Source of the DNA: Mugil cephalus
Taxonomy: Eukaryota; Chordata; Actinopteri; Mugiliformes; Mugilidae
Assembly (NCBI RefSeq): GCF_022458985.1
Contig: NC_061790.1
Coordinates: 15,108,397-15,172,396 of the forward strand
DNA length: 64,000 bases
Direction of reading: 5' to 3'
Below the pieces are notes generated by a model, which saw nothing but the letters and a program-made list of their open reading frames with translations, did no database searches and was not told where the DNA came from. Each line of letters opens with the position of its first letter. Within the stretch, counting starts at the first letter, position 1. Below, piece after piece: positions 15,512-59,687 of the stretch. Made by a program: the position numbers and the translations under genes.

Positions 15512-26154
<10,643 letters not shown>

Positions 26155-33922: not shown

Positions 33923-36418
33923 GGTAGAGTCTGAAAATGGTCAAGTATTTAGTATTTTAAATACTTGACGTTGTAAATATATTATAAACTCTGAGACACG
34001 GCTAGTATAATTCTGCAATGATGACATTATATTGTTAGTATAGCTCACTACATCACCCGCATAGAGGTCAGTTCCTGATATAATACTGTATATCGTACAT
34101 ATTAAAATGTGTTTTATGTGAACCAGCTTGTGATCCAACTTGCAAAACCCCTTCTAGAGGCTATCAGGGACATTTTTACCAGGAGCAAGGTAGCCAGCTA
34201 CAAGGAGGTTAGTTGGTTTGCCAAGGTTACTCTGGTATGAAATAGAAGAACTACTGACTACTTTATTGTACTACTACTCATTGATCCTGAGTAGTTATTT
34301 TCTCCAAGACATAAGAGACAAGGAGTAAGGACTACAGGGTTTTACAACCCTGTGCAGAACTGTAAGAAACCAGAGCACAGGTGATATTGACAGGGAAGAA
34401 AAAAAAAATGTAAGTGTAATTGTGCTGTAATTGTTTACCAGTTGAAGTGTATCAGAAGGTCCGATGCTGCCCTCTGGTGGCCCCAAGGAGACAAACGGCA
34501 GGCTTTAATACACACTCTTCAATGAAGTTCACGCTTCTGGCAACACACTGCAAAACTGTTAAAGAAAACGGACTTTTATTTATTTCTGGGAAGTCCTTTC
34601 TTTCAATGGTTAAGTACAACATCACAAGTAGCCACGTCGAAGCCCTGGAGCGTTTGCCAGGGCAGTATTACATACAACAGCTTAGTCCATTGATCCAGAT
34701 GGGGGTGGGGGGGCTTTTAAGACTGTTATCCTCTGAAAGTGATGAGTGAAGCTGACGAACACGGGACGAAGAATGTCCAGAAAATGAGCATTAAAATATA
34801 AAGAAATCCATCTTCAAGCTGAATCACGGTTTGTGAATGGCACAATGTTTCTCTGCCAGCGCTCTTTGACATGAACTCCGTTGTTGCGTTTAGTTTGTAG
34901 TGTTTGTCATTTCCCAAAGGAAAAAAAAAACCCACAAAACATGACAAAGCATAGACGAATGAGCCAGTAAAGCAGAAATAAAATTTAAAATACCCACCAA
35001 AAAAACAAAAACAACAACAACAAAAAAGAAAACAACTACATTAACGGACTGCTAATATAGACAGCTTTGTAGTTTTCACTGCTGTTTGGAATCGCATCCC
35101 AGTCAGGATTTACCAACCAGACAATGACCACATTTGTAGTTTTAAAAAACAACATAAAAATGAGGAAATAACATATTTACACAAATATTCATACATATAT
35201 AAGCAGACATGTACACGTGGAGCTGTACATAACCTTGACAGTGCATAAACACACCACAGTTCACCGTTACGGTGGCGAAATCTCAGTCACAGTTGTTGCC
35301 ATGTCAATACAATCTACCGTCTCGAAAAGTCACAAATCGTGGGGCATCATTATTAAAGGGAAAAAAAAAAAGCCTCATGAAATCAACTACTATAATGTGC
35401 TAATGACTGCATTCAAGACTTCCCTACGTCCAGGCTGGAGGTACTGCAAACCACACCGGGCCCTTCAGCTGGGAATCGTGGCAGTTACAGATCGTTTTGT
35501 TCCTCCCAGAAATACAGGGACATTACAGTTATAATCTAAATGTTCAGTGCTGCATAAAATCTGCTATGTACAAAACTTCAGGTAACAAACAAACAAAAAC
35601 TTAAGCAAAGTCAAAATGCAAGTAGGTTGTTCGTGCCCAGTCGACTGATTGTTCCCTGTGTACCCTTTATTAACAATGATCTAGTGTATTTGAGATGATT
35701 ATCACTGACTAGACACTTGTGTTTACCTGGATAACAGGCAGACATCATAACTCCCAGATTAATTTGCCATTCCAAAGACAGGCACAGTGTGTTTTAGCAT
35801 TGTTCCTTCATTTTCACAGAGACCTGTTTGTGTACAGCAGACCGGGTCAACCTATCAGACATAACTGAGGCATTTAATACATACCAGAACCCTGTCCCAT
35901 CACAATCTAGACGATTTTTCCCAGGGTTGGTTTCAGTGTGGAGAAAAAAAAAAAAAAAAAAAAAGTCAAATAGAGGTGTCAAACAAGACATCCCATAGTT
36001 GTGACAATCTCTGGAATACGAGCCCCCACATAACTGTTTGAATTCTAACAACAAGGATCAAGTTAGGCTCCAAATAAGTCCCCTCCTCCAAACAGTCCAT
36101 GTTGTTTAGTTACTGACTTGTGAAATAAGAGGTTACACAGTACACCGCTGGTAAATAAGGCCCAAGTCACCTTGTTTGGCCTTGCTTTGAATACCAGGTT
36201 GATGAAAAGTCAAGTACAGCAGCCGTTACTGAATGTTCTTCACTGAGGAGAAGTTTGAATCACACACAGGAAGAGTGTTTAACCGACTGGAAAAAATAAA
36301 ATAAAAATCAACAAGACAAGTCATACAACAAGACAGTATAAAGAGTGTGATTATATCTGTTGGAGCAGGAGAGTGTGATGCCAGGCAGTGTTGTAGCGTT
36401 TGTGGTGTCCCGTGCGAC
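33923..36418 (-). other. Probable distal 3' UTR or 3' flank of selenoi
   Basis: No coding exon is seen. Because the SECIS at 36419-36482 must be transcribed, the selenoi mRNA has to extend below 36419. Candidate minus-strand AATAAA signals occur, for example opposite tttattt at about 34577-34584, but which one is used is unknown. The segment has A-rich runs near 34920-35035 and a homopolymer at 35944-35963. Confidence 0.45.
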
Positions 36419-36482
36419 GGCTTGTTCCCTCAGAGTGAGTCCGCTCCGCTAACGGCTTTTGGAGTCACTCTTCATTCAAGCC
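36419..36482 (-). promoter_or_regulatory. SECIS element for selenoi (form 2)
   Basis: On the minus strand helix I is GGCUUG/CAAGCC. The internal loop carries AUGA on the 5' side and GA on the 3' side, for the SECIS quartet. Helix II pairs AGAGUGACUCC with GGACUCACUCU, 10 of 11 positions, with one C-C mismatch. Directly after helix II comes AAAAG, the expected unpaired A motif 11 nt from the quartet. A mini-stem CCG/CGG with loop UUAG caps it. Order and spacing fit a form 2 SECIS. It lies about 1.35 kb downstream of the Sec codon of selenoi, in the same orientation, and would recruit SECISBP2 and the Sec-specific elongation factor. Confidence 0.88.
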
Positions 36483-37791
36483 CTGCGCAACTTTACCATA
36501 CATCATTGCCATGGCAGCAGACAGACAAACCAAACCAAACAAACCCAAAACAAATACGTCTGTATAAAAAGAAATCTACAGTAAAAAAAAAAGAAAAGAA
36601 AAAAAGAACGAATCAGCATGAAGACACGACACCTCAGAGGGAAAAAAGAACCGAGAGGCAAGTGCTCACACAGAGGTTAAAGTGGAAGGTTAGCCCAGGT
36701 CACCCTGGTCAATTCTTGCCCTGGTTAGTCAACGTTCAGCTCTGTTCATGGCAACGTCCCAACAGATCATTAGAGGGAGATTTATACAATGTTTTACAGG
36801 AGAAAATTCTTTCTTAAAGTTTCATTTCAGTTTAGAATAAAAAGTCCCAAACCCCTTAACATATATAGTGTATTAGTGCGTGTGTTTATACATATATATA
36901 TGTATGTATAGGCACACACAAACACAAACACACATAGCTATTAACATTTATCACGTTGCCGACTACAAAATCAAAATGCTGGACACAGATGTGTGAGCCA
37001 CATGTGGCCAGAGTTCTCGAGGTTTGGTCAAGTTTGCCATGATACCACTTGACGCGGTCTTGTTAATATAGAAAAACTGAAATGGTGATTCCCCAAGGCA
37101 TATTATACATTCATAATACTATGTGAGTATATCTGTGTGAGTTTGTGTCTGTGTTAATACACCTGACACCAATTAGAAATTATCTGCATTAAAGCAAAAC
37201 TCTGTTCGGGGGTGTGTGTGTGTCTGTGTGTGTGTGCAACCGTAAGTGTGTACGTCTATCTTTGTGAGGACCAAAGTGAATTTTTGACTTTAGGGACATT
37301 CTGGCCTGTCATCATTTTGGCTTATGACCATACAGGCAGTTTGGGGATTAAAATTTGGTTTTAGGGATTACTTAAATGTTAGGCTAAGGAATAAGGGAAC
37401 CATTTAGTAAATGAAGTCCTCACAAATATATAAGTACAAACGTTTGTTTTTAAATAGCTTGTCTGGGCTCCCGTTCTCATGACTGAAGCACATTTCCGTA
37501 GGAAACAATTGCACCTCATTGGCTCAAACAAACTAGCCAATCACCAATGACGGAAGCCAGAGCCCCTGCACCAACCCCATCATTGAGACCAGTATGGTGG
37601 CAGGTTGGGAAATGTGTGTGTATGTGTGTGTGTGTGTGTGACAGAGTGTGAATGTTGCATGTTTGTTGGGAGAAGATGGAAATGAGGGCCATAGTCCATT
37701 CCACTTGCAGAGTCCTCATGGATGGAGAAGAGGGGATGCGGTTTCCGTGGTGATGAAAGTGAAGTGTCGTTAAGTCGCACAGGGGAGAGGC
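36483..37791 (-). other. 3' UTR of selenoi between stop codon and SECIS
   Basis: This stretch is noncoding. It contains a GT microsatellite near 37211-37236, a GT tract near 37614-37640 and a MITE-like insert at 37261-37426. It is inferred to be transcribed because it separates the selenoi stop from the SECIS, unless a 3' UTR intron exists. Confidence 0.6.
37261..37426. mobile_element. MITE-like repeat inside the selenoi 3' UTR
   Basis: The ends tttgtgaggac (37261-37271) and gtcctcacaaa (37416-37426) are exact reverse complements, and the interior is noncoding. The sequence resembles a common teleost repeat that starts with ttgtgaggacc and ends with gtcctcacaaa. It separates the Sec codon from the SECIS. 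Confidence 0.6.
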
Positions 37792-40700
37792 CTAAACCTC
37801 AGCCCCTTTCAAGCCGATTCGCTCCTCCTCATGTCAGTCGGTGTTGGGCTTCTTGAGGGAGAAGGCGAAGATATTGAAGTGGTTGCTGAGTTGTTGTACC
37901 TAACAATGAAAAGGCAAAAATATATTAAACCTCAAAATATCATTTTCATTTCTGCAAAAGAGCATTTACTGGGGTGTGACCAAAATTTATGTTTACTTTG
38001 CCTTGATCACTATGCTTTTTGTCTGTTTAGTGTGGTGTGATTTGCTTCTTTTTGCTGCCAGATCTCCCTGGTAGCAGACACACCATCTCTCAACAGGGCA
38101 TTCCTTCCAATATTAAAGATAAATAAACAAAACTCCTTGTTGCTTGAGTGTATCACCATGATTCTATCTATGACTCCGAATACATAGTCCCACAGGGTTC
38201 AATTCTTGGACCATTGCTATTCAACCTGTACATGCTTCTTTCATGTTAGACCTGACATGTCATGGCTAATCACAGTTAAGCACTCAGATTTACTTTGTTC
38301 TCTCACTGAGTGACGATGGCCTAGTAGACAGTATTTCTCAGTCAAGGTAAATAAATGAAACTGCATCCTCCTCTGGCGGTCTTTACTGCACATTTCATTT
38401 CCTTAAAATGTGCAACTTATGACAAAACTGTAATAACGCCATCCTTTTATTTCAGATTCAGTGGATTTTGCCAAATAACACATCATATCATCACACTTTC
38501 ATTGCCTTCATGAGCTGCGTGTGACTGCAAGGACATGAATGCTGATACAGCTGATATCCGTCTGCACTGTCATTTTGACTTTCCTGCCTGCATAAGGTCA
38601 CCTAATAGATTCAAAAGTTTGTATGAAAGGAAAACCACAATGTTTGTGTGTGTTCTTACCACTGATACGCCGTAATGTATGTGTGCTAGTATGACGGCAG
38701 CTGTCCAGAAATAAAGCAGCAGAGTCTCATTGGTGACGACCCCCGTCAATACCGACAGTACCACCGCCGTCATGGGCAGCAATAACCAGGTCAGTGCCTG
38801 GCAACGTGTGTTACTCATCTGACACACAATTAGCTTACACTGAAAGACAAAAATGTGCAAAAACAAACAAAAAAAAAAAAAAGATTAAACATGCTACTCT
38901 ACAACACAGTGCAGAAACTGAATGTTAGACGGGAGTCGAAAAGTGCAGAAGAGAAAGAGAGACTCACCGTGACATTGGCGAAGGCTGTCCCCACCATGAG
39001 GTAGAAGATCCTGGGCTGGAGCTCAAGGATGTTTGAGGGAGAGAAGACAACCCACGTGGTGGACAAGATAAAGAGGAGGGCGGGGGAAAGGAAAGGCAGG
39101 AATGCTTCGTACAAGCTACTGTGCTTGAGAGTATTACTCCGGTGAGCCCTGAAAACCAGACCCAGAAGGTGACAAGTTCAGAAGACTGGGATAAAAACAA
39201 TTAACACATGACATAAAATGCTGATGCAAGCTACACTTACTTGAAGACATTGTAGAGGCTCATAGGCAAGGTCACAGTGAAGGAGCAGGCTGGAATTTAG
39301 CAAATAATAATGTTAGTAGCTGCTTCTCCAAATGAACTAAAGTATTTAGAGTGACCAAACAACTCACCTATGATCATAAAAGTGAAAAGGTCTCTATAGA
39401 GAAAGCGCCACAGGACTGGCTGGTACCAGGTTTCCACACCCACCACAGCAGTGACCAAGTAAACAAGGGAGATTGTCTGGAGATGGGGAATAAAACATTA
39501 CGTAGTTAGAAGGTTAGTATCTTAAGATTGCAACCATTCATCCATATCTTATCTTATAACCAGAGACAGCAGGTCAGCACAGCTTTTTATTTCTCCACAT
39601 TTTGATAGGCAGCAAGTGGCTGTAGCAAAGATTTGTGTTAAATGTGTTTATAAGCTCTTACCATTAGCAGTTAAAATAAGCTATATAATAAGCCAATGTT
39701 TAAAACATACATTACACCACTGGAAATAACTACCTCTACACAGCATTACAGAGAACAACGATATTCCTTTGTATCCATGTCTTCTGTAAGATCAACTGGC
39801 CTGAAAAAAAGTGGCAAGAGGTGAGTTGTGCGTGCTCTTACCACTTGGCTGATGTCGTATCCCCAGGGCAGAAACAAGATGCCAGTGTTATATTTCTCCC
39901 AATGAGACAGGATGAAGGAGAACAGCACCACCCACAATATGTAATAGAGTGTGCCCACACTCACGCCGCTCTCCCCACGGCCAAATATAGAATATACGGA
40001 GGCCACAAAGAAGATGCAGGCCCAGCTGTCCAGGCCGTGGTCAAAAAGCTCCCCTAGTGGTGTGGAGGAGTTGGTGCGCCGTGCCTGTTTACCGTCAACA
40101 CCGTCTGGGCAAAACACAGACACAGACACGGATCATTAGACACAGTGCATGTTTAAAAATACTTTTTAACATGTCTCACAACTCCACTGAGCTGAAGTTG
40201 GTGCCCACACTCACATAACTATTCAAAGTCAGTAACTTTCCTTCTTCCCACCACTGATCTGAACTATGCGCTTTTTATCCTCACATGGAAGTATTCTGGA
40301 AGCACATCCCGACAAGAAGCATGAGCACATTGTTCCATTTTAATGACTCACAAGGTACATGTCCACACAAGAGCACACAGTGAAACTGACAGTATATTAA
40401 ATCTGCATTTTCGGACTGTAGTGAAGATTAACAGCCCATGGCTAAATATGAGGTGATGTGACTAAGTGGCTCATAAAATGTAGTTCCTGTGTGTGGAAGG
40501 TGAAGTTCGTAATTGTGACGTTATTCTACACACGGCTGTGTACCAAGTGATGAGCAGCTTTGCTCAGGGGCTTGTGCAAACATTTCACCTTAACATTACA
40601 CCCTATTGTGCAAGTATGACTCTGTTGACAAGACTAATCCTACTTGAGACACTCAGGTGGATAGTGTTGAGGGTGTGGCACAATCAAAGATGGAACTTAT

Positions 40701-43700
40701 AGGTTACACACACCCTCAGATATATCAGGCGATCAAATGGTAAATATTAAACTGACTGCGTACAGTGTGTCAAAAGTCAACTGAAGGCGTTTCAGAATGT
40801 CACAGTGATCAACAGCCCATATTAATAGATAAATACAGAAGCAAATAAATACCAACATTTATTTTTAAAAAGGTGCTCAGATCAACCTAAACAGTTTGAC
40901 CTGCAACCTCCATGAAGGCTGATCAGATGACACAAGAATGGCATGACAACTTCCCGACGCACACAAAAAATGGCCTCAAGCTCCAGATACGTGGTCTGCT
41001 TTGTGATGTCCTGGACGCTGGACCAGAGCAGCAGGAAGCAGGAACCATGGACTGGCTCCTTGCAGGCTGTGTACACTGGCATCAGCAGCCAAGCATCATC
41101 ACAGATGAACATCTACCTATGAGAGCAGGTCATCCATCAAAGTGGACATTTTTTTTTTTTTTGCTTGCTTTTTGACAGGACAACAAAAGCTGCAATTCTG
41201 CCTTGGCCCAAGCGGATAAAGAGTGATGTTTCTGCATGGTGGGTCATACTATGGACGAAAAGACGACTTTTTTCTGTTCTTTCTATCAGCCAACAGGGAT
41301 TTAATGGAGTAGCTAAATAAGACTGTTGTAATTACTCTTCTAGCCTACTGGAATTTATTGTTGTGGCATCAGTATCATTTTTAAATGTAGCTTTCTGTGC
41401 ATATTTACTTTTTAGTTTATGTTACTGCACTAGTTCCCTTCCGTTATACTTATTCTACACTTACACTTGCTTACACATACTCTCTCTCTTACCAGGCCTA
41501 GCTTAAAACTATTTTCTATCAGATATCTAGGTTTAGTATTCCTGAGAAATTATTAACAAACAATCATCTTTCAGTCCTTATGTAAGTGAGTGAAACCTGC
41601 TTGAATAGTATTAGACTTGTTCTTAAAAATCGCCTTCATACACATTCAACAAAGACCGGCTTCAAACATATGATGACAGCCGAGACAGATCTCTGCAGTA
41701 CACACCTTCAACTCAGATTTAAGCCAACAAACAATCCAACTTAAGCGGGAAGAATTTAAAAGCAGGTTGTCTCATTCAAAAACTGAAGAATACATCCTTC
41801 TGTACAGTTAATATCCAAGAAAAGTATCAACGATCAAATGGGAACTTTTAGAGGAAAGGAATCATGCTTCCCCCACTGCCCTTCAACAAGTCAGAGAACA
41901 AACAACAGACAGGGGTCACTGAGGTTAGAACTCACCGAGTGTATAGGCTAAGAAGTTGAAGATCCCTGCAGCTACCCAGACCCAACTAGGCACGTGATCA
42001 TGTCCTGCAGCTGTGACAAAAATAAATAGCACAACATAAGGACACGGTGGAAAACTGAAAGGCATACATTAAGCAAACAGGCTTCCTACTTGATTTAATT
42101 CATATGAATCCAATATAAAATGGAAAAGGAATCAACTAATAATAATATTTTAGGTGAACCATTAACATGCGTGTTCAGTCTTGCAAGGACTCTTGTGGGG
42201 TTAGTCTGACTGGCCTTGATAGGGACTGCAGAGCTTACAGCTGCTTTAATGTACTTCATGTACCAGTGTGTAACTAACTATCTGGTTAGATGAGACAACA
42301 GACATGATAGAGAACAGTATCTTAACACAGGTGTGGACAGTCAATATTTGTTTATATTCCAAAAGATCATGTGGTTAGTGTACATGTTAACAGTGAGACT
42401 GTGTGCTGGTGTGTGCGCAAAGGACATAATGGGTAGTGATTAGCCTGCGCAACCATGGAAACATATCAGATTTCAGCAAGTGATGGACTTTGTCTTTCAT
42501 AAATAAAGTTACACGTGTCTGGTTCCTTCAACCTTTTCTAAAGCACAATGGTGAACACAACCAGCCTATAACATGTTTTAGCACAAGATAAACACAGGAT
42601 GGATGATGAGAAAGACCTACCAGAGGCAGAGAAGTCAAAGTCAAAGAAGGCCAACATAACAAAGTTCAACACGAGGAACATAAAGCCTGTAAATGTAATG
42701 AGGTTTGGAGCCAACCATGTTGGTAGAAACTGTAGACAGAGGGAAAACAGACAGTGAATAATAATTCATTAACATGTCACTCATCCATTACACAGACTAT
42801 CCTCATTCAGGTTTGAACAAGACAAATTTAAGACTTTTCTAGACATTTTAAGACCCTTACAGGTTCAATTTAAGACCTACATGAAGAGTAAAAAATACGG
42901 ACAATCAGAGACCTAGAATTACTTTACAGAAACATTCAGGGTAATGTCAGGAAGACACTAACTTGAAAAACAAGCCTTGATACAGATAAGTAGATAAATA
43001 TATCAGTGGCTATTGCATAAGAGAGGAACTGTCTGTCCATTTTACCAGGGATATGAATGCGTTCAAAACAATAACATTTGTCTAAAGTTGATAACAGACT
43101 AGTGCAGTCAGAGACTGAGGTGGTCTGACAGAGATAGAGAAAGTAGTGGTGGTGTGTATGGACGTCTGGTTACTGTATCACAGCAGACGGCTGGAAACCT
43201 CATTAATGATGTAGCGCGCACAGACACAGAGCTGAAAAGGTCTTTCTCACCTTCACCACAGAGTTCCAGAAAGGATGCATGACATACACAGACAGGGGAT
43301 TCGAGTCCACTGCGCTGTACTGCAAAAAGACACAGAATTTCACCTGTGAGGATGTAATTACACCACACACACATTTGATTCATTTCATCGCACTGCAAGT
43401 AAACCAATCCCATATGGCCTAATATGCAGCACATTGACTGGATAATATGGAGTTCCTTGTCAACACACAGATCACACAGATCAAAACAAACCTGATTCCA
43501 GTGTCCAAGTCTGTAACTTCACCCAGGTATGATGGACATGTATGCCCGATCCAGCATAATGTACTATGCTATCACTACTATCACTATGGTCTTCAAACTA
43601 TTCTAGAAGATTTTCCTATGAAGAGTACATGCTGCCACTAAGATGTGGCAGTTATAGATTTTCTTTTATTCTTTCTCTTAGTTCAACAGGAAAAGGGTCA

Positions 43701-45449
43701 AGGTTTTCATTTTCTAGTGACTACGAAAGGCTCGGCTATTGATTTTTAACTGTACTGTTCTCAGAGTTCAATTTAACCAGTGCAGTGTTTACTCTGGATA
43801 TAATGTAGCAGGCTAACCAAGGCGCCACATTAATACGACATAGCACTCTTTCAAATACTTAATTTAGAATTCTCACTTTGGATGATGGTCATTGTATTTT
43901 GTAATAAATAAATAACATAGGATGTTCCCCAAATAAAGAAGAATAACAAAGCAATGTGACTAATCATCACTACATTATGCAAAAATACACTAGAATTTAC
44001 ATCATCTTCCTGCACAAACAGGAACTGAGACAAACACACACTTGACCACCAAATAGGGGTGGCAGCAGAGCAAAGTGTGACAAAAAAATGTGACAATGAC
44101 AACAAGCCACTCTGTAGAGCAGTCTTCACGCTGCGTTCTACTGTTAAGTGCACTTTAGTCCACATTCTGAGAAACCAACCACTGTGTCACAGGGAGCAAC
44201 AATCCTTTCCTTCACTGTCATTTGTCCTTCAGACACCAATGCTAAAGGCACAGTGGCTTAGACACAGAGGGTGTCACTTAATAGGCAATTGTTGGGAAAT
44301 AGGTCTCTCACGATAAACAGAGCAGGGGAGTCGTTTCATGCAATAATGAAAGTGGAAGTTTTTAAACACGTAGCCTGAAATGTCTTCGCTTGAGATTATT
44401 AAAGTTATAGGACGTTACTAAAAGTTAAATTCTGGCCTCTTGTGGAAACTGATTATCACACTGATGCTCATCTTCAAGGGAATTAGCTGAACACTGACAG
44501 ATTCCAATGACATGCAGATTATGTAAATCTGTTTTAAAGCCTTTAACAACACATCTTCATGGTGGCTGGAAGGCCTTTGACAGTGATTACACATGACACT
44601 CCCATTTTTTTTTTTTTTTTGTTGGCGTTTCCCATCGCTGCACTGGTTCAAACTGAGTGGTCCCCTCCTCAGTTATTCATTACAGCAGCTCCTCGGCTGC
44701 CTTTCTTTCTGTATTTGCGAGATCAAGAAATAAGAACACAAATATCGAACTGGTTATTCGTATAAACTAAAAACATGATACGGGGGATCTGAAATGTGTG
44801 AAAATAATGGGCAAAGCACCATTATTTCAAAGCAAACGCTGGCAAATAAAGAGTGATGAGCTAGCTCATGTGCGCCATCGTAAAGCACCGCATAATAAAT
44901 AATGACACTTCCGACGAGACCTTTCAAAACAATAGTATTCAACATTATATATATGTATGAATCTATATAGTTTAAATAGAACCATTCGTTTCGTGTGTTA
45001 TAAATAACAAGTCCGTAGGGCTTGTTGTTACCGACGAGTTACTGAAGTAGCTCCAATGTTGTTTTTCTTCAGACAATGACCATGACTCGCGCTCGGGCCA
45101 AACAATTGTTGGTTCCTACAACTCAATGTTTAAACGCAACAGCATAAACAATAAATAAGAAGTAGTAACGTTACTAATGTTTAGAGCGTACAGTGGTAAT
45201 GAGTGACTGATTTTATTTTAAGAAAAAAGATGGTCAACATCCGTTAAGACTGTAGCTAAGTCTGGTTCCCTTCACACATTCTGACTACCAGGGAAGCACC
45301 CTGCAGATCGTGACAGCTAGCTGACACACACACACACACTGTGGGTTCAGAGGCTAGCTGCTAGCACGGTATTACGCTCTTTTAATCATTACCTTATACT
45401 TGTCGAAACCCGCAAGCTGCTCCTGAGTGACATACTCGTAAAGAGCCAT
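37792..45449 (-). CDS. selenoi: Selenoprotein I / ethanolaminephosphotransferase 1, 10 coding exons
   Basis: This enzyme transfers phosphoethanolamine from CDP-ethanolamine to diacylglycerol, the last step of the Kennedy pathway to phosphatidylethanolamine. It is a multi-pass membrane protein of the ER/Golgi. The exons, in transcript order, are 45393-45449, 43251-43319, 42621-42729, 41936-42010, 39842-40104, 39368-39476, 39241-39289, 38968-39148, 38660-38839 and 37792-37899. All junctions keep frame. The protein is 399 aa and starts [20 protein letters not shown]. The CDP-alcohol phosphotransferase motif DGx2ARx8Gx3Dx3D is complete at residues 107-129 (D107, A111, R112, G121, D125, D129). An in-frame TGA at 37834-37836 is read as Sec386 in [12 protein letters not shown], with the true stop TAG at 37792-37794. 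Reading the TGA as stop would give 385 aa. The gene is head-to-head with ost4. The close relatives cept1 and chpt1 lack the Sec tail. Confidence 0.95.
37834..37836 (-). other. UGA selenocysteine codon (Sec386)
   Basis: The TGA follows codons for KKPNTD and is followed by [13 protein letters not shown] and TAG. Known vertebrate SELENOI carries Sec about ten residues from its C-terminus in a similar context. The frame stays open beyond the TGA, and a matching SECIS lies downstream. Confidence 0.92.
37900..38659 (-). other. Intron 9 of selenoi, carrying a LINE scrap
   Basis: Donor is gtaaga and acceptor is ttgttag on the minus strand, in phase 0. It contains a plus-oriented LINE reverse-transcriptase fragment near 38150-38250. 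I see no other feature. Confidence 0.7.
38150..38250 (+). mobile_element. Non-LTR retrotransposon fragment (reverse transcriptase motif)
   Basis: Reading from 38184 gives [18 protein letters not shown]. This is the strongly conserved QGSxLGPxLFxLY motif of LINE reverse transcriptases. Similarity fades on both sides, so only a short dead piece remains. It is antisense to selenoi, in its last intron. Confidence 0.8.
40105..41935 (-). other. Intron 4 of selenoi
   Basis: The phase 1 intron ends in the acceptor ttgcccag, just before the codons for the catalytic motif. Apart from a T run at 41149-41162 I see no exon or recognised repeat. Confidence 0.65.
42011..42620 (-). other. Intron 3 of selenoi
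   Basis: Donor is gtaggt and acceptor is gtcacag on the minus strand, phase 1. Nothing further was recognised. Confidence 0.65.
42730..43250 (-). other. Intron 2 of selenoi
   Basis: Donor is gtgaga and acceptor is gtctacag on the minus strand, phase 0. No further feature was recognised. Confidence 0.65.
43320..45392 (-). other. Intron 1 of selenoi
   Basis: Donor is gtaatg after the KYK codons and acceptor is ttttgcag, phase 0. The short open frames inside show no family signature. A T run lies near 44607-44620. Confidence 0.65.
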
Positions 45450-46654: not shown

Positions 46655-46822
<168 letters not shown>

Positions 46823-57500: not shown

Positions 57501-59687
57501 CTACAACTGCAACAGATGCACAGATGGTGCACTTAGTACAATGAAAGTAAGTAAGTATCATTATTGTTCATTTATACCCCTTATACATCATTATCCTACA
57601 CACAGCAACACATGCTTAATCTGCCTAGGCTAAAAGGGCCAAAACGTGTCATCTGACCTGACTCTTACAATCTCCTTGTGGCCATTATGTTGAACTTAAG
57701 TCATGAAACTGCAGTCAGCTTTCTGTAGTAACTTATTTTCCTAAGGTTTCTACAATAGGCTTGTACAACTTGATCTCACCTCAGCTTGATATTGCCTGAA
57801 AAGTTATCCTTAGTTTATTGAAATTATTATTGGCTATCTATACAGCTGCATGGGTTTCTTATATGCTTTTAAATGTATAATATGAAAGACTTCAGAAAGC
57901 TAAAATGTAACAATACTAGATGGAACATAATTCCACCTAAATTTCCCAATGAAGTCCTGAGTTCAATTCTACAATATTTACAATGTAGCATGTCATATCC
58001 TGCCTTATCACTACATACTGCATATGTGTCTCCTGTGACTCAGGCATAAAGCAGCCAGCCATGCTCACAGCCATGCTTATTTTGAGGATCGGGAGATTTT
58101 TTTTACCTGTAGTGTCCGCGGACAACCCCATCTGGGTTGAGCATGGGAATGAGCTTGAACACAAACATGTTTCGCAGCACATGTGCACGTGGGTCATCTT
58201 TTCTTAGAATGAAGTTGAGGAAACCGTTAAACACAAAAGATGAGGGGGTTTCTCCAGGATGCACTCTACTGCTTAGGAAAAACACCTGTGAAAACAAGCA
58301 GAGTCACAAGTGGCAAGGGTTAGCATCACACTTTTGCCCATTATTAAGCGACTCCGCCACAGATGGAGCCTTATACACTGTCATTACAGGGGAATGACTG
58401 TCTGTTTATATATGACTGAGGGATTACCCTTTTGCAGGGGAAGCGATGTGGTCTTGGAGTGGTTGTGTCAGGAAAAAGCTTAGGCAGACGGGCTTCTCTT
58501 TCATCCTGCATCCCGTTGCAGTTGGTCACAGTGAGCAGGTCCACCCTATTTCCATCTAGTGAGTGGCACAGCAACTCCCTATGGTAATACACAGTGCCTG
58601 GTGCACTAGTAGGAGAAGTAAGTAAAAGAGATTGGTAGAAAAGAATAATGCTGCCAAATACAGTGTTCTGACTAACAAAAAATTCAAACTGTGGGTTTGT
58701 TTGGGTGAGGCATTTATGTATCTTTAAACATTTTACCTGCTCGGATTAAGTTGAGCAGCATTGGGATGGTTCTCATCTAACTGCTGCAGCATGTCCTGGC
58801 ACTCACTGTAAGAGAATGGGTAGCAAAAGGAGAAGTAGGTGGTTGCTCCCCGCACTTCCAACATCCGGTGAGTGAATGAAAGGATGAACTGGTTATCCAC
58901 AATCTGGAAAGCAGCAGATGACCGGAAGAGGAAACACATTATTAGAGAGATAATAATAGCCTGACTGAAAGTACTCTGCCTCATCGCCCCCTGACGTCTG
59001 TATCCTCTCCTTGACAGACTAAGTGCATGTGCATCTGTATCTACCTCAGATGTGGGTCTGTCCCGAATCCTCTCCCATCGGTTTTTGCCAGGTAAAGTGC
59101 GTACAAGCGGAGCCATGCCCTGGCTGTAAAGCTTCCTCTGGTTGTTCATGTTCATCACATTGATTTTCAGCAATTTTCCAGGTGCTGCTCCCCGCACACT
59201 GAAGTAAAACCATGATCTAAAACCAAAAACATGACAGGGGAGACAGTGAGGATGCAGCAAACAATCACATATTCTAAAAAAAAAAAAAAAAAGCATTTTT
59301 CATGACACATGTATTTCCCATATTTCTGTAAGTCATGGTGCTCCCTTTCTTAGCCAGCACATCTTGAAAATTATTTTTTTTCCTGATTCTATAATGATTT
59401 TTTAAAAGTACCTGCTACAAAAGGAGATTTCCTTTCTCTCTGTCTTTTATTTAACTTTTTTATTTTTTTTACCTGTTTCCATTCTCATGCGCCGTGCCCG
59501 CGCAGTCTGGCTGTGTCCATACATTGAACTCATAGTCAGGGGTAAGGTTTGACCCTGAGGGGGAACTTCCACTAGAAGCTGTATCAGAGGGAGGGCTGGA
59601 GTTGCCTTTGTCCACCTTTTCCACACGTGCCAGGTTCCCCGAGTCAAACTTGGAGCTAAACACAATATTACCAAAGCGAGCCTCCAT
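54595..59687 (-). CDS. agbl5: Cytosolic carboxypeptidase 5 (tubulin deglutamylase), 11 coding exons
   Basis: CCP5 is an M14-family metallocarboxypeptidase that removes the branch-point glutamate from polyglutamylated tubulin in cilia and the cytoplasm. The exons, in transcript order, are 59473-59687, 59045-59216, 58737-58903, 58428-58605, 58107-58285, 56881-57439, 56546-56715, 56187-56322, 55838-56055, 55491-55720 and 54595-54923. All junctions keep frame, giving 850 aa. It starts [19 protein letters not shown]. The N-terminal CCP domain shows [13 protein letters not shown]. Zinc ligands are in HPGE (H253, E256) and in DLHGH (467-471). The catalytic Glu is in SYTLECNYN (E551). Residues about 340-450 form an acidic, Ala/Pro/Val-rich insert within the catalytic domain. 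The C-terminal 200 residues are Ser/Pro-rich with a nine-serine run and are probably disordered. The terminal exon may have alternatives (see 48525-50837). Its order beside ost4 recalls human 2p23. Confidence 0.94.
57440..58106 (-). other. Intron 5 of agbl5
   Basis: Donor is gtaaaa and acceptor is tttgaag on the minus strand, phase 2. I see no recognisable element inside. Confidence 0.65.

Follow-up and report, generated by a model that had tools for sequence, protein, structure and literature searches.

The window analysed here, a 64,000-nt stretch of Mugil cephalus DNA, carries on its minus strand a putative SELENOI/EPT1 coding region of ten exons (37792..45449), whose gene model was built by eye and checked by script. 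Exons 1-5 lie at 45449-45393, 43319-43251, 42729-42621, 42010-41936 and 40104-39842, and exons 6-10 at 39476-39368, 39289-39241, 39148-38968, 38839-38660 and 37899-37792; the introns have GT-AG boundaries throughout (9/9). When joined, the exons encode 399 residues; the only internal TGA falls at residue 386, and the frame closes with a TAG stop (37792..37794, minus strand). In the spliced reading frame this in-frame TGA, the predicted selenocysteine (Sec) codon 386, occupies 37834..37836 of the minus strand and is followed by 13 sense codons, and the tail that these encode is one that we take to resemble the tail of SELENOI.

The encoded protein contains a CDP-alcohol phosphatidyltransferase domain (PF01066, 42.1 bits against a cut-off of 22), with residues 47-168 matched. 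Five solved structures matched the protein, all of them named cholinephosphotransferase 1 (CHPT1) or choline/ethanolaminephosphotransferase 1 (CEPT1), at E 2e-36 for the CHPT1 chain and E 7.3e-35 for the CEPT1 chain. In each of the five chains the best-scoring stretch stopped before the TGA at 386, its end falling somewhere from residue 253 to residue 382, and the Sec-containing C-terminal extension was absent from these alignments. A Sec-bearing C-terminal extension distinguishes SelI from homologous enzymes (PMC3316567), and the predicted tail past the TGA fits that description. The same paper lists cysteines at human positions 133, 229 and 310 as conserved in SelI and missing from its homologs; the five cysteines of the present protein are at 133, 229, 305, 310 and 317, matching all three SelI-specific positions. 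From the reading frame, the domain, the relatives and the three cysteines, the gene is taken to be SELENOI/EPT1 (ethanolaminephosphotransferase 1).

Other reading frames of the window also gave domain matches, in a scan that covered 19 of the 104 stop-to-stop frames. An intact OST4 gene, encoding an oligosaccharyltransferase subunit of 37 residues (46709-46822, plus strand; PF10215, 59.2 bits, cut-off 25), lies on the strand opposite SELENOI, with some 1.3 kb between it and the SELENOI start codon. Farther along, a minus-strand frame at 58736-59299 weakly matched the N-terminal domain of cytosolic carboxypeptidases (PF18027, 22.0 bits, cut-off 23.2) and is perhaps AGBL5, a gene that lies near OST4 in human. 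A plus-strand frame at 17916-18290 matched part of PF00069, the protein kinase domain, at 55.1 bits (cut-off 31.7).

Downstream of the SELENOI stop codon, sequence, fold, alignment to the SECIS_1 and SECIS_5 models and a strict motif pattern identified a form 2 SECIS element at 36419..36482 of the minus strand. Read from 36482 to 36419, it runs GGCUUG A AUGA AGAGUGACUCC AAAAG CCG UUAG CGG AGC GGACUCACUCU GA GGGAA CAAGCC. Helix I comprises 6 bp (GGCUUG/CAAGCC), and the core consists of AUGA, beginning at 36475, and of GA on the 3' side immediately past helix II. Helix II, formed by AGAGUGACUCC and GGACUCACUCU, spans 11 positions with one C-C mismatch, and the unpaired AA is supplied by AAAAG, which starts above helix II, 11 nt past AUGA. 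With the AUGA/GA core excluded, the internal loop consists of a single A on the 5' strand and of the five nucleotides GGGAA on the 3' strand, and the corresponding loop between the two helices of eukaryotic SECIS elements measures 4-18 nt (PMC3328465). All three SECIS helices appeared in the minimum free energy fold, in which the 64 nt reached -24.1 kcal/mol and CCG-UUAG-CGG formed the mini-helix of form 2. Folding of 121 nt including the flanks gave z = -1.68, with 13 of 200 shuffles equally or more stable, so folding energy by itself is weak evidence for a SECIS. A complete form 2 SECIS at this position, about 1.35 kb from its Sec codon, had been claimed from the letters alone; every part named in that claim was recovered from the minus strand, and the computed distance from TGA to AUGA was 1361 nt. 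These results support the hairpin as a form 2 SECIS whose position suits it to decoding of the in-frame TGA at 37836-37834.

The human SELENOI (SelI, EPT1) SECIS is likewise of form 2, a likeness of form class, and its apparent Kd for SBP2 is 12.2 nM according to Table 1 of PMC3328465. It also shares with the present element a location in the 3' UTR, the GA/GA core and the AA motif, features that PMC3316567 describes as general to vertebrate SECIS elements.

The element lies within an inferred single-exon 3' UTR of 3224 nt (34568..37791, minus strand), delimited by scans for poly(A) signals and splice donors; the end at 34568 is putative and was chosen by us near the signal at 34584. The poly(A) signal scan found no AATAAA or ATTAAA between the stop codon and the SECIS, and the first of these signals downstream of the element were at 35878, 35671 and 34584. 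No GTRAGW donor, the one donor consensus scanned for, was present on the sense strand of the 3224-nt UTR. Since the SECIS is preceded by no such poly(A) signal and the UTR has no GTRAGW donor, a 3' UTR intron is unnecessary, and we set it aside as unneeded. The sequence-only reading had called for either a long 3' UTR or a 3' UTR intron to link the TGA to the SECIS: a plain long 3' UTR suffices, and an intron is neither required nor suggested by these scans. That reading also gave the distance more weight than it merits. From the stop codon to AUGA there are 1319 nt, and the 1361 nt from the TGA fall within the range of 207-5207 nt (mean 872) that PMC3316567 gives for the UGA-SECIS distance of mammalian selenoproteins. 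According to the same section of that paper, the SECIS of most selenoprotein genes shares an exon with the stop codon, and SelI is not named there among the genes with a split 3' UTR. The literature searched gave no UGA-to-SECIS distance specific to SelI.

A search with SECIS models, as had been proposed from the sequence alone, recovered this element alone from the window, although below the curated cut-off. Rfam SECIS_1 (RF00031) matched 36417-36484 at 25.3 bits against a gathering score of 35, which is a score threshold and not a biological feature, with E-values of 0.0027, 0.079 and 1.4 when 121 nt, 3.5 kb and the whole window were searched. SECIS_5 matched the same positions at 18.5 bits (cut-off 50) in the two smaller searches only, with E-values of 0.26 (121 nt) and 7.5 (3.5 kb), whereas SECIS_1 did so in all three. 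Both models aligned here over their full length, independently of our custom patterns. SECIS_1 aligned from 1 to 64, keeping register through the core, helix II and the mini-stem, and the element differs from this model in extra bases past the mini-stem and within the lower loop. The Rfam search gave no further SECIS match at other sites of the window up to E 10, and at curated thresholds it gave no match of any kind in the whole window. The sub-cut-off scores count against the SECIS reading. Within the SELENOI 3' UTR, 36856-36944 is a TG/TA-rich palindromic repeat that matched several miRNA families, some of them on both strands. These matches reached E-values down to 3.3e-05, better than that of SECIS_1, and were far under their own cut-offs; we rejected them as low-complexity, given the sub-cut-off scores, the hits on both strands and the palindromic TG/TA repeat.

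The low Rfam score and the modest folding z of -1.68 both speak for a chance look-alike, the true SECIS then lying elsewhere in the 3' UTR or outside the window. How often chance yields such a hairpin depended on the stringency of the pattern. The strict pattern called for AUGA followed after 10-11 nt by AA, for no more than one mismatch in helix II, for GA, and for a helix I of at least 6 bp. It had a single match on both strands of the 64-kb window, at 36475, and occurred in 4 of 200 whole-window shuffles and in just 1 of 3000 sense-strand shuffles of the 3224-nt 3' UTR. A relaxed version (helix I of 4 bp, 9-12 nt to AA) matched in 10 of 3000 UTR shuffles, and a still looser one, which accepted AA or CC on both strands, found one site in the window and matched in 7 of 40 whole-window shuffles; the two latter rates also speak for a coincidence. 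The patterns were composed with the element already known, and because of this they favour it. The motif combination, unlike fold stability, sets the SECIS apart from shuffles. With all core parts present, the strict pattern unique in the window and a second SECIS match lacking there at E ≤10, we regard a coincidental hairpin as very improbable.

Termination at the TGA was weighed alongside chance. If the TGA were a genuine stop and the hairpin a relic, the protein would end at residue 385, and the matched Pfam part (residues 47-168) does finish well ahead of that point. The frame nevertheless stays open for 13 codons beyond the TGA, through a tail that resembles that of SELENOI, and the SECIS core is intact. 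SelI is, moreover, a selenoprotein in all vertebrates surveyed in PMC3316567, and we give termination at residue 385 hardly any credence. A different possibility, which we consider very unlikely, is that the SELENOI SECIS has drifted in this lineage, as the low Rfam score and the C-C mismatch might indicate, so that recoding would be unusually weak or regulated and the enzyme truncated at residue 385 would be a regular second product.

With the gene, the codon and the hairpin each read from the DNA, the element is almost certainly the SECIS of a vertebrate SELENOI, serving UGA 386; the compact introns and the gene content of the window give the impression of a fish. SBP2 (SECISBP2) bound to a SECIS core acts with eEFSec and Sec-tRNA so that the ribosome decodes UGA as selenocysteine. 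In the SELENOI mRNA of this fish, the hairpin would fold as a kink-turn and be bound by SBP2, which would recruit eEFSec and its Sec-tRNA to the ribosome. Decoding of the UGA, 1361 nt upstream of the element, would then insert selenocysteine 386 and allow translation to run on through the 13-residue tail. We infer SBP2 binding and recoding in this organism from established knowledge of the family.

The element is thus a known one in a known gene, real yet ordinary, and the finding raises no new question. Automatic gene callers tend to stop such proteins at the TGA, and a complete, correctly placed SECIS for SELENOI helps annotation.
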